From NCBI GenBank assembly GCA_000697055.1, contig JNDT01002027.1:1-64000 (forward strand): a stretch of 64,000 bases of DNA, read 5' to 3'. The position numbers were made by a program, and so were the translations under genes. Of this stretch, positions 57,883-64,000 are shown one piece after another. How positions within the stretch are numbered: the stretch's first letter is position 1; every line of letters starts with the position of its first letter. The notes beneath the pieces were generated by a model. It made no database searches and was not told the DNA's origin. It was given only the letters and a program-made list of their open reading frames with translations. The DNA is from Saksenaea vasiformis B4078 (lineage: Eukaryota; Mucoromycota; Mucoromycetes; Mucorales; Saksenaeaceae).

Positions 57883-58739
57883 TTCGCGTCTATTCAAAAA
57901 CGGTATGGTTCCAAGGAACAGTTTTAGAAAAAGAAGAAAATTTGCCGCAGTCCATCTCATTATTTAAGTTAGAGGGGTAACACGAAACATCGACTGTTGG
58001 AAGCGCGTCCTTAAGGGAGTTCAACTTAGTGCAACTCAGCTCCGTACGAGAGGTACAATTTTGATCTGAACGTTTGAGTGAGGCGCACAAACAACAGCAG
58101 TAATCCTCATAAGTTAATTGTTCTGCGAGTGAGGAAATTTTTCACGTGGCGTGTCCTTGCCTTTTAGGGATTGGAGGCTGTATTTACCCATCTTTGGCAA
58201 AAGGCGAGTCATTCATGGTGTGGTCGGAGATCCCTTGGTTTGACAAGTCATGTTTACTGCTCTTCTTTTTTTCCTCCATGTATGCGTACCTGTGCTCTAA
58301 ATAGTTCAAGCTAACGGTTGTCTTATGGATCCGGGGGTAGACCCGAGGAACACGCGATAACTTACATTGATATCATTATTGAAGAAGGTGGAGAACAAAA
58401 GATCGAGATTATGTAGAGTGAATGAAAGGATCTTGCGGCCATCGAGATCTCCCTGGGCCATACCGCATTGAACATACTGACCCTTGTCTTCATGGTACTA
58501 ATGCTACTGCTGTCCTTCCTTTTTTTTTTTTTTTTTTTTTTTTTTTTGTCAGCAAAAGCCTTACATCGTTATGACTGTTAAAAAACAGATACCGAAGTTT
58601 CGAGATGATTAATGGTAATCTAGCGTAGTGGAGTTCCGGAATCCCTTACCGCTCCCAAGGAGCAAAGATCCAGTATCTGGCATGAAGTTTGTTTGCCTTG
58701 TATGACTGAACTGTGCAATTGTACCTTTGTCCTTTTTGC
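57883..58739. other. intergenic
   Basis: Spacer upstream of array member 3, including the long T tract. No gene seen. Confidence 0.5.
58520..58547. repeat. poly-T tract (28 bp)
   Basis: Uninterrupted T run; could be the poly-A tail of an inserted retrocopy on the minus strand or simple slippage. Confidence 0.9.
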
Positions 58740-59438: not shown

Positions 59439-60502
59439 TCATGGACCATCCTTTTCCTTGGTGGTATGGTGTTCTCCTTGTCCCTCTTCATTTTCTTCTT
59501 GTTTCATTTGAGGAGGGGATTCTGTTGATGTGCTTGCTTGATGAATAGAGGCGGATGCTAGAGGGTAAGGATGGACAATGTATGGGTATAGAAGCGCCTG
59601 TGGTGGTGCAGACGCCTCTGCATTTAATGGGATGGGTGAGCAAGATGGTGGCGGAGGATAGCGTGGTTTTTGATCGCATGGAAAATAATGGTGCTGATCC
59701 GACTGATGAATCTGGGGGTTATACCCAGGTGCTGGGCTACTAGGTGTGTAGGGTGCCAGGAGCATGCTGGGCATGACAGGGGCGGAGGGTGTGGGTTGCG
59801 GAGAGGGCAATGAGTGATTTTTCTCGTCATTGTTGCTACCATCACATTCTGAAGTCTCACATATCGTCTTCTCTGGAAACGGATCTACCAATCGTTTTCG
59901 ATTTCGACGATTGATGTATATTCGCTGAAACAATGCAAGAATTAGCGGTCACTCCCATGTTATACGGATACAAACACGACGTTCTTACCCAAGCAATTAC
60001 TGCAACTATACTAACGTATGCGAGTACTCCGAAAGCAGTGCCGATTATTTGCGACTCCGTTGGCCATTCATTACCCGAAGAGCATAACGGAAAATAACGC
60101 CAAGACTGTATCCATAAATTAGAGATTACCCATGGAAGGCAAAACACTTACAGCCTCATACACTGCGAACGCACCAAATACCGCCTTTGAAGAGGGTGAA
60201 TCGTCTCCTTGCGCAACAAACCAGAGGTCATTATCTTCTGAGTCCAAATAATCAGACCAGCTGAACGTATATTTGCCATTCTTTGATGGAATCTTTGTGC
60301 CAACAATTGCAATCGTCCTTGCGTCTTGATAATCAAAGCCTTTGAGCAGAAAGAAGTCGATACTTGTCATTTTATCTGTCGTATTCGTCCAACGAATGAC
60401 TTCATTGTCGCGCATATAACGAAATCCATCCGCATCGTCGAATTTAATAGAGAAACAATTTACCGCGCCAAGAAAACATAAAATCAGAGCGGTTATTAAC
60501 AT
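59439..60502 (-). CDS. Kre9/KNH-like single-pass surface protein, array member 4 (type B)
   Basis: 317 residues; exons 60502-60152, 60105-59989 and 59924-59439. Signal peptide MLITALILCFLGAVNC. The ectodomain gives the clearest Kre9/KNH match of the four: NEVIRWTNTTDKMTSIDFFL, LKGFDYQDARTIAIVGTKIP, NGKYTFSWSDYL, LWFVAQGDDSPSSKAVFGAF. The middle exon starts SWRYFPLCSSGNEW and holds the helix GTAFGVLAYVSIVAVIAW. Tail: RIYINRRNRKRLVDPFPEKT, then a proline-rich part (DQKPRYPPPPSCSP) shared with member 2. A TATA-like box lies about 50 bp upstream of the ATG. Confidence 0.78.
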
Positions 60503-60548
60503 GTTGGGAACGTGGAAGAAAGTGGCGAAGAACAAATTTGGTGGAAAA

Positions 60549-60558
60549 AAGTATATAA
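60549..60558 (-). promoter_or_regulatory. TATA-like box of array member 4
   Basis: On the minus strand the sequence reads tttatatact, about 50 bp before the ATG at 60502. Confidence 0.4.
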
Positions 60559-60662
60559 ATATTACACTCCGAAACATCGTTACACATGATTCTGAAAAGG
60601 TCGATGGGCTTGTAGGGTCACTCAGTATCTGAACCCTAGATCTCATCTGTGAGTCAAAAAAG

Positions 60663-63600
60663 TCAGGAAACTGTAGTGCCGCGTTTGACTCTTTTACCCG
60701 ATCCAGAGTTCGCGATAACTCCTGTCATAGCAACAGGTCCCGGTCCACTCAACCTTCATTTGATAGAAAGTTATTATTATCGCAAACGCGGAGATAGCAC
60801 TTACTCTTCGCAGAGCTTCCGTGGAGAGGTCGCGCACCTTTAAAACATGGATGCAATATTAGTATATACATGTCATAGAGTTGACAGTAATTTACCGGTA
60901 ATTGGTGGCGCCGGGAATAAATGGTTTTCCAGCCGAGAAATTGCTGGGGTCGAAAGGTGATAGCGTTCTCCTATCTACAGACAGGACATTGCTTGCGCAT
61001 GCCAGACCTATTGCGAGAGCCGCTTGAACATCTCTGTTTTGTGTAGCATGGCCTGATTGATACGCTATGCAACTCGGATTCACACACTGGGATGCACCGT
61101 TTACCCTAACTGTCTTCCATTCTCCCTTCTTCCTTCGCCGAGCTTTGGCCCTCTCCACTCGCCCAAAATAGTAAACGCATAACTGCGAACTTCGATGCTC
61201 GTTCGTCATCGATACGGGGACATAACGCTGATGTCGCCTTCGCAGCCATGCTCCTCCACGTCTAATGTGACCCTTCAGTCGAGAACCGACACCTGTGCCC
61301 TGGGTCCCTATAGCCATGATAGGCACAATATTTCGTGCACCATCCTTGTCAGTGTTGGCAGCTGTCCTGACGAACCTTCGCTCCTGCGCAGCAATCTTAT
61401 CATAAACGCGACTAGTAAACAGTGACTGAGTACGTTTTTTATAGTGAGCGTGATTTGAGTGGTAAAACGATCGCAGTTGTTTTCGGCAGTTTCTTTTCAC
61501 CTAATAGGTATTGAAGAATTAGAGGTAGAAGGAAAAAAGGATAGCACCTCTTGCGACTCTAAAACTTGTTCTACAGTAGTTGCTAAAGCCGATGAACTTT
61601 CTTTCAAGCGTTTTTCTGCGCTCTTAACCGTCAAGTCGTTCTGGTATGAAGTGAGAACCTGAATCCACTGACTACCATTACTGTACCGTATTCCTCCTTT
61701 CTCTTTTTTTGCGAAACTTCCTGGAAAAGGTTTTCTCTTCCAGATATCCTGCCGTGATCCGCATTGATTTGGGAAGTTTGCACATTTCTTCAGGAATGGA
61801 TACTGGTATTTGTGTATCGTCCAATTGGCGGTTGTGTAAGTTGAAGTGTAGGCGAGCGCGTTCCATTGTAAGAGGGACAGTTGTCGAAAGAACCCTCAAC
61901 CCATAATCCGTCCCGCCAAAGGTAATAGCTTTCTTGTGATCCTGGCTGATTTGCCGATTCAGCTCTGTAATGTCAAGGAACTGTGTACTGGCTTCGCAAC
62001 CTGGGCGATTCCAACTTGTAACCTTACACATCTTTACCTCCTCCTTTTCATCGTCTCTCTCTGACTCCTTTTCCTTGCCCTTTCGCTTCTTCTTGAGAAT
62101 ATCCATCTCCTGTAGTTTGATTTAATTCAGTTGATTGACTGTTGCATACAATATCCTTCAGTTACCTTCTGACATACATATCGCCGCCTTCGCTGATCAG
62201 CCAGTTCCGACCGTATCTTACTTAAATTATGTTGTTTCTGTGCGCGCTCCAATTTCGAGGTCTCCAAATCTTTGTAACTTTTGCTTTGCTTTTCCTTCGC
62301 CCTTGGATCGCTGATATTTATCTTGTGGCGCTTACGCTTGTCTCGAATTTTCCTTTGGACAGCGTCTTTTCTCCGTCGATGCTCTTCTGTCCGATTTTGG
62401 ACGACATGTTCTGCCTGTTGTAAGGGCCTTTTTTGATTGCCTTTCTGCCGACTCCAAGGTTTTGATCCTACATTTTGCGTCTTCCAGCAACGTTGTAACT
62501 GTTGAAACATCTCGATTTGATCCATTCTCAAAGACACTGTTCTCGTCGTCCATACTCTTCCCTTTCGCATTCTTCCTTCTTTGTTCATAATGAGATACAG
62601 CTATATTCCTTCTTTTTGAACGTTCCCATCAATTATCGCCATCTGATGGGGTGTAACAGTTACTCGCCACCGTGGTTCCAAACCGCGAGCATGGCAAATA
62701 CGAGTGATTTTGTCTTGATCAAAGAAGGAACCAATTACGGCGGCTTTGTTAGTTTGAGCTTGTCTAATGTTTGTAATCGCGGTTCCATCTTCTTTGTATA
62801 AATCAAATTTTGCCGAGGTCGAACCAAAAAGTTCATACATGGACGCCGCATCGAGAGGTAGGGCATGGATCGAGGCAGGGCTGATCGCTGGGCAAATATT
62901 AGCAGTGAATTTGCTGTATCCAGTGGCACGGAGAACGATATTCGATAACAAAACAAACCGAACACGCAAGGCAATCGCAGTGCTTGATCGTCCTTTCGGT
63001 ATATATGGTCTTAGTGCGTTCGTAATCTGAACGACGGTATCTATCTCGACCTTCTGGAGCTTGTTATCGTCGTCGTTCCACAACCCCAAGACATCAGCGT
63101 CTCTCACTTTTCCTTCAACATCTACTGATAGTAACAGTTTCTTCGCAATAGCTTGAATTCGTATCAACCTTCTTCTGCTAGGTTCTTTCTTCGCGTCATT
63201 CGCTTGAACTTCTTCTGATTTCTCTTGCAACTCTTCCAATTCGTCTTGCATCTCTTCGATTGCCATCTCAATGGCCTCATCTATTCCTTCATCGTCTATC
63301 CCACTTATATCCACAGGAATACCCAACTCGCTCACCTCACCTTCAGACTACATAACGTTTATTCTGTTAATATGTCGATGACATCGGATATTACGCTCAC
63401 CTCTTCATCCTTCCGAGACTGTGGATTCTCACCTTTCGTGGACATGTATTCCTCTCTCGTGCGTGATTGCAACCTTGTAATCGCATCTGTACACGACTTC
63501 TCACGTCGCAATAGTTTAATTCTTTTGTATTGGTCCGTTCCCACTTCCAGCCTTTTCTTCAGGCGCCTTAAATTCTTGCTTTCTTGTTTTATTCTGGCTT

Positions 63601-64000
63601 TGATATGACGCCAATGCTATTCCTTTTTCCTTTTCATTGGTTTGATACTCTCCTCCCGTTGTTTTTCTTTCTCTTTTGCTTTTTTCTCGGCAATCTGACG
63701 GACCTTTTGCTCTCTTTCAGGGGCAAGGTTTAGTTTAAGGAGTATACGGAGGAGATGGTTGATCGATTTATGGAACAAACCGCCTGCCCACATGTTTTGT
63801 AGGTTGGCGGCGTATTGCTTCAGCTGAAAGTGCATTGTGGTGCTTAAGCCGGTAGGTGGTTTTGGTAAATCTTTCAACATTGGGTGTTGCAGCGCAGACC
63901 AGAAAGGTTTCTCACTAGCTTTATAGCTCTGTCTCCCGAAACAGCTCGAATGAATAAATTGCAAATGGGCTTCGCTGAATAGGTTGCTGAATTCATCATT
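60663..64000 (-). pseudogene. Fanzor/TnpB-like RNA-guided nuclease gene, 5' end outside window, decaying
   Basis: Exons: beyond 64000 to 63401, 63347-62622, 62571-62166, 62109-61548, 61500-60896, 60837-60805 and 60753-60663 (about 1000 residues visible). Long helical, charged N-terminal part; a middle domain (ADVLGLWNDDDNKLQK, ITRICHARGLEPRWRVTV); RuvC-I aspartate in KKAITFGGTDYGLRVLS; RuvC-II glutamate in SMTNEHRSSQLC just after a LKGH segment; zinc-ribbon half CVNPSC; RuvC-III aspartate in QNRDVQAALAI. This motif order is that of TnpB and eukaryotic Fanzor proteins. The CxxC of the first zinc knuckle is CVYY, so one ligand is lost. There is an in-frame TAG at 63617, one extra base in an A/T run at about 62430-62435 and one at about 61704-61710. 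Six GT-AG introns of about 47-58 bp keep phase elsewhere. Either a decayed copy or one with sequence errors. Confidence 0.75.

Follow-up and report, generated by a model that had tools for sequence, protein, structure and literature searches.

TnpB, which is found in IS200/IS605 elements, and Cas12f come from bacteria or archaea, and a proposal for TnpB is that it cleaves the donor site after excision, whereupon repair from a remaining copy brings the element back. The eukaryotic Fanzor1 proteins mostly measure 600-700 amino acids (aa) according to one study (PMC11423790), and according to another the SpuFz element of the fungus Spizellomyces punctatus has terminal inverted repeats of 33 bp and, putatively, TA duplications (PMC3627910). 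Here we analyse a stretch of 64,000 nucleotides, called the window, from Saksenaea vasiformis B4078 (contig JNDT01002027.1, positions 1 to 64,000), which belongs to contig 472, 83940 bases long, in a fungal assembly of 38.7 Mb. At its far end lies a gene that had been proposed, in an initial annotation made from the letters alone, to encode a Fanzor/TnpB-like nuclease. We consider this locus, the copy C472, likely to be a decayed member of a DNA transposon lineage whose RuvC nuclease is of the Fanzor1 type, very probably guided by RNA, and extended in its N-terminal part. This reading is carried by the gene structure, the multi-copy family and its ends, an internally deleted derivative, the motifs, the fold of a relative, past selection and the damage in the copies.

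The gene comprises seven exons on the minus strand, running within the window from 64000 down to 60663. Exon 1 continues beyond the window to a start codon near contig base 64877, and the boundary first drawn at 60663 is the end of the stop codon (60665-60663). To establish the exon plan, we aligned nine copies found in this genome (C472, C561, C282, C458, C531, C270, C604, C643 and C160). All six short introns initially proposed hold up, with GT...AG borders and lengths of 46-58 nt; introns 1-4 were placed by comparison with sister copies, whereas introns 5 and 6 were read from the window sequence against an alignment of element 3' ends and against Apophysomyces ossiformis EC973_007782 (P0001). 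That alignment holds 22 of 27 matches, C264, C353, C435 and C67 not having been entered and C441 having been removed by an end filter.

In this genome exon 5 has at least 148 matches, one of them being exon 5 itself and the next closest reaching 97%, which places the observed gene far beyond chance; after merging there are at least 127 RuvC loci, both counts being lower bounds since the best 150 of 173 candidates were scored, and the merged loci including fragments. The last 348 bases of the element give 27 DNA matches, the window included, with all candidates scored. Association with a transposable element, as in other Fanzor1 genes, is seen in that 24 of these 27 reach the 3' end, that their flanks differ and that a 5' terminus is conserved. 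The initial annotation left open whether the element was domesticated or dying. A single host gene derived from a Fanzor would suit a long, multi-exon gene with conserved catalytic acids; yet the window copy carries a stop and frame changes, and 14 other loci with different flanks match the whole of exon 5 (one of them only residues 1 to 197) at 74-97% identity. Domestication has in our judgement almost no chance of being right, and for the window locus it is refuted by the multi-copy, decayed state: the locus is one decayed copy of a transposon family with a common precise 3' end and differing flanks.

The motifs GTDYG, NEHRSSQLC, CVNPSC and NRDVQAA were found as first described, on the minus strand in exons 3 and 5. 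Compared with the Fanzor1 pattern D-X(125,275)-[TS][TS]XX-[C4 zinc]-X(5,50)-RD, both P0001 and the Mortierella protein P0003 show fitting spacings (208 and 230), a CxxC...C arrangement and RD, and the RuvC/TNB nuclease lobe of Fanzor1 is found in the lineage. The window copy retains all three acids, as had been claimed, though with CVYY instead of CVYC. Because CVYY, present also in C643, stands where seven of the nine copies have CVYC at the first zinc half-site, the window copy has, on this alignment, lost one zinc ligand. The proposed relationship to Fanzor and TnpB is borne out by the motif plan, by one paralogue above a Pfam cut-off and by a fold search whose first six rows are Fanzor1 structures. 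The fold search was made with the relative P0006 (39% identical to P0001) and not with the window copy; it yielded neither a structure lacking the RuvC fold nor best matches to an unrelated family. For Cas12f1-like_TNB, no match was obtained with window exon 5, C160 or P0001, three of 21 relatives gave matches with E values of at most 0.1 (the lowest 0.013), and it is the 45% paralogue that exceeds the cut-off. A NCBIfam search with P0001, the sole member tried, matched no family. The mucoralean assignment was also supported, the nearest relatives being from Apophysomyces, and relatives of the giant lineage occur in Mortierella, Benniella and Umbelopsis. A literature search pairing Fanzor with Mucoromycota or Mortierella found no paper, most subscription papers lying outside the search. 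The interest of the lineage is that it reaches twice the usual Fanzor1 size, was selected while multiplying, and matched no Pfam family.

Protein lengths are 1256 aa in C160, 1285 in A. ossiformis, 1285 in Mortierella sp. AM989 and 1335 in Benniella sp. The lineage therefore lies outside the usual Fanzor1 range, a length that is typical and not defining, the numbering of PpFz1 reaching 844. GTDYG begins at residue 943 in P0001 and 930 in P0003, so that about 930 residues precede RuvC. Exon 2, which encodes a section of this region, has 79 genome matches, itself included, with all 85 candidates scored; they merge into 73 loci. Because 58 of the 73 have an exon-5 match no more than 3.5 kb downstream on the same strand, and none upstream, the N-terminal part is, on the evidence of locus order, a real portion of the protein; the Mortierella and Benniella relatives also carry it together with the nuclease. 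A fold search for a WED/REC lobe before RuvC gave SpuFz as best Protein Data Bank (PDB) match, at a non-significant E of 0.16. It is conceivable, though we think it improbable, that these residues are the missing recombinase or DNA-end-binding partner, so that one polypeptide would both move the element and make the RNA-guided cut, self-sufficient and with no separate transposase. If the N-terminal half supplies a transposase, the movement of Fanzor-only elements would be explained; if it is a larger target-recognition lobe, the view of eukaryotic RNA-guided nucleases would be broadened.

The ratio of nonsynonymous to synonymous divergence (dN/dS) over the whole protein, calculated for the 36 pairs of the nine copies, is 0.18-0.34 in the 30 pairs with dS >0.1 and 0.37-0.72 in the six with dS below 0.1. 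Both halves show low values in diverged pairs, except for the N-terminal part of C472-C643 (0.66, at a dS of only 0.05). A dN/dS of about 0.2 between diverged copies shows past purifying selection on the protein, so that the lineage was selected while moving; the pattern is what is usually seen where a protein would be required for as long as a lineage is mobile but no longer kept up in copies that have died. The dS of the C472-C643 pair is 0.05 over the N-terminal part and 0.32 over RuvC. Such unevenness points to exchange between copies, and C472 and C643 are probably mosaics produced by recombination or gene conversion.

Similarity between copies ends at window 60623-60625, and the flanks beyond differ, apart from short common starts in the pairs C458/C308 and C643/C78. 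The 3' flanks of C458 and C308 begin TAAGGGT, the same letters with which the C458 element itself opens at its 5' end; this may be chance or a trace of the insertion mechanism. While the 3' end is precise, 5' ends vary among copies. Full copies possess a conserved 5' terminus, recognizable in divergent copies, with two short palindromes (GGGC-TAA-GCCC and CTCAG-AC-CTGAG), and AATAC, or AATAC with one transition, directly precedes it in 10 of 12 copies seen (7 exact). The two bases after TAC agree at both ends in all seven copies with both ends read, in two of which they are not TG. Direct repeats of 13, 6, 3, 5, 8 and 6 bp were identified by eye in C458, C531, C604, C270, C160 and C548, respectively. 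About 300 bases are missing from the 5' end of the window copy, whose similarity begins near contig 65679; different 5' parts are also found in C643 and in C561/C282. In C548, about 300 bases of the 5' end are joined to 1160 bases of the 3' end, an internal deletion with both ends kept that resembles internally deleted DNA transposons. The 5' terminus alone was met at C177 18103-18168, C394 85705-85763, C244 54621-54698 and C574 462-541, where the 27-match search gave no matching 3' end, which suggests other elements with the same end.

A common 3' end with variable 5' ends is also what a retrotransposon of the long interspersed nuclear element (LINE) type, or a retrocopy, would leave through reverse transcription and 5' truncation. 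However, introns are kept in the nine aligned copies, the 3' ends have no poly-A tail (reverse transcriptase was not searched for by profile), the 5' terminus is conserved in divergent copies, and C548 has both ends with the middle removed. We regard a LINE-type origin as highly improbable and reject it on account of the kept introns and C548. Nor do the ends resemble those of MuDR-like Fanzor elements, with their terminal inverted repeats and 9-bp duplications: in six both-ended copies, comparison of the 5' 150 bp with the reversed 3' 150 bp revealed no terminal inverted repeats, 41 to 298 of 300 shuffles scoring as well.

The Fanzor gene could instead be passenger cargo of a known type of non-autonomous transposon, Crypton-like or Helitron-like, and play no part in movement. 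The 5' regions of six copies contain no other open reading frame (ORF) over 131 aa from stop to stop (the serine recombinase that stands beside the gene in IS607-type Fanzor2 elements was not searched for by profile). A 3' end that is precise, 5' ends that vary and direct repeats that are short recall MCi-2, an unclassified Fanzor element of Mucor in which a partial Crypton gene is carried by one subfamily; Fanzor1 genes, moreover, are often captured by transposons, both points as given in PMC3627910. Against this stand the dN/dS near 0.2 and an architecture common to the Mortierella and Benniella relatives, which suggest that the protein is of importance to the lineage. PF12012, the Crypton-type domain, is silent in the genome, yet all 14 controls are silent too, so this is no real test, and Helitron proteins were not searched for. 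We judge the passenger explanation unlikely, though the most serious of the alternatives.

The coding region reaches within 38 bases of the element end, and a 17-base segment that stops one base short of this end can pair with part of exon 7, with 16 of 17 pairs formed in the window copy. The stem and a 6-bp hairpin were assessed in an alignment of 21 copies, 20 of them distinct, with C466 left out for its altered 3' end: in the 20 distinct copies 96.5% of cells are paired, compared with 22-43% after sliding. Tested against 1000 shuffles per copy, the stem match outdid 997 in C472, 998 in C531, 999 in C458 and 967 in C643, and the number of cells changed on both sides and the covariation score were each reached in 7 of 500 shuffles; the covariation itself is weak. 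Rfam gave nothing above cut-off on 60400-61500, with one match far below it. A stem at the terminus thus probably does exist in the main subfamilies; from its position we would guess that it is a guide-RNA scaffold, which would fit a guide RNA read from the element end.

With the Fanzor1-type transposon as the preferred reading, the element would move as DNA, aided by an enzyme not found in the element itself, and its insertion sites would be such that the 5' junction shows a sequence resembling AATAC and each end a short direct repeat. Once the element has been excised, the nuclease could be directed to cut the empty donor site by a guide RNA that comprises the 3' terminus of the element and adjoining flank, and repair from a remaining copy would restore the element, as proposed for TnpB. 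In that case AATAC would serve as the target-adjacent motif, and the terminal stem would contribute to the scaffold of the guide RNA.

Several observations weigh against this reading. At the level of the protein, no Pfam cut-off is reached by the window exons, the C160 protein (1256 aa) or P0001; searching the PDB with P0001 as a single sequence returned one chance match and no nuclease; with profile A3, SpuFz1 came just below an Integrator subunit that is unrelated, all E values being about 0.5, and profile A7 ranked SpuFz1 first at only E 0.38; and hhalign to PF07282-positive families gave a 47% probability with an E of 2e-4. The gene models P0004 and P0005 are without the zinc/RuvC-III end, and the spacing of 277 in P0004 falls just outside the published pattern. 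The AlphaFold2 (AF2) model of the N-terminal part of P0002 is unreliable, with a predicted local distance difference test (pLDDT) value of 43.8. As to the stem, it is no better than chance in C139, C232 and C160, a single pair changed on both sides was equalled in 328 of 500 shuffles, and folding of five whole tails gave modest z-scores, from -1.76 to -0.01. At the ends, agreement in TG is weak, TG being the usual state, so that only AG (C270) and CA (C160) are informative; the direct repeats vary in length between copies, from 3 to 13 bp; and no transposase was found.

In the window copy, comparison of the nine copies placed a stop at 63617 and a change of frame near each of 62613 and 62430, and a further frame change in exon 1 near contig 64730, outside the window, is indicated by two frames and the exon length. 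One stop and two homopolymer frameshifts had been listed at the outset; the stop and the frame change near 62430 were recovered, those near 62613 and contig 64730 had been overlooked, and the frameshift at 61704-61710 was rejected, the run being equally long in eight of the nine copies, the window copy included, and exon 3 being stop-free in its frame. Damage is present in all nine copies, which supports the description of the element as dying. C160 alone has joined exons free of stops into the end of exon 5, where its C-terminus is altered. The coordinates of the features are collected below.

Features of the Fanzor1-type element in the window (positions of the forward strand)
Feature	Position	Strand	Remarks
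Exon 1, 3' part	63401-64000	-	N-terminal region of large Fanzor-like protein; in-frame stop at 63617
Intron 1, 53 nt, GT...AG	63348-63400	-	Sister-copy comparison
Exon 2	62166-63347	-	Conserved N-terminal region with ISPASIHALPLDA block; frame changes near 62613 and 62430
Intron 2, 56 nt	62110-62165	-	Sister-copy comparison
Exon 3	61687-62109	-	RuvC-I GTDYG at 61914-61900
Intron 3, 46 nt	61641-61686	-	Sister-copy comparison
Exon 4, 31 codons	61548-61640	-	Sister-copy comparison
Intron 4, 47 nt	61501-61547	-	Sister-copy comparison
Exon 5	60896-61500	-	RuvC-II NEHRSSQLC 61203-61177; zinc CVYY and CVNPSC 61086-61069; RuvC-III NRDVQAA 61038-61018
Intron 5, 58 nt	60838-60895	-	Window sequence against 3'-end alignment and P0001
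Exon 6, 33 nt	60805-60837	-	Window sequence against 3'-end alignment and P0001
Intron 6, 51 nt	60754-60804	-	Window sequence against 3'-end alignment and P0001
Exon 7 with stop codon	60663-60753	-	Ends 38 nt before element 3' end; against 3'-end alignment and P0001
Stem 5' arm (17-bp terminal stem)	60700-60717	-	16/17 pairs in window copy
Stem 3' arm (terminal stem)	60626-60642	-	One base from element end
Element 3' end, GATAC plus TG	60623-60629	-	Inter-copy similarity stops
Element part inside window	60623-64000	-	Similarity to other copies on to about contig 65679; about 300-bp 5' terminus of full copies absent

Next to the element, window 60122-60502 (minus strand) encodes a small protein that matches Kre9/KNH below threshold, at 20.9 bits for a cut-off of 24.6. 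Its predicted start lies about 120 bases from the element 3' end; the element may sit in the promoter of this gene. On the 5' side, L009 6262-8999 (contig 66.3-69.0 kb, minus strand) is a probable host gene with a MyTH4 match over the cut-off and sub-threshold RhoGAP and WW matches. A run of 28 consecutive T occupies window 58520-58547. Elsewhere in the genome, PF07282 has at least 137 matches (150 of 388 candidates scored; e.g. L003, L007 and L008). Because only seven of those listed overlap exon-5 homologues of the giant lineage, the genome holds, as far as profile matches can tell, many other Fanzor/TnpB-type loci besides it. Apophysomyces genomes, of other species than the present assembly, are described as low in transposons in a study that used a homology tool (PMC5604411). 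Our analysis suggests that genomes of this genus can hold more than 100 Fanzor-derived loci, which such a tool may miss.

Among the systems described so far, SpuFz1 (PDB 8gkh and 9ceu-9cez) is a protein of 633 aa encoded by one ORF, whereas the present lineage reaches about 1250-1335 aa and the window gene has six introns; the two share 16-18% identity over the domain, and the SpuFz element has terminal inverted repeats that the present element lacks. TnpB of IS200/IS605 and Cas12f have chains of about 360-530 residues. In PpFz1 of Parasitella parasitica (PDB 9cf0 and 9cf1) an extra FRI domain lies inside RuvC, as described in PMC11423790, whereas most of the extra length of the present lineage precedes RuvC. 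Of the published elements, MCi-2 from Mucor circinelloides comes closest (Bao and Jurka, 2013; PMC3627910). As portrayed there, it is likewise from Mucorales and without recognizable inverted repeats, and it also combines a Fanzor-coding 3' region, of about 6 kb, with variable 5' regions and short direct repeats. It differs, in the same text, by its duplications, ATAATTNNNN(N) of 11-12 bp, and by the one subfamily with a partial Crypton gene. Compared by description only, MCi-2 may or may not belong to the same lineage as the element analysed here.
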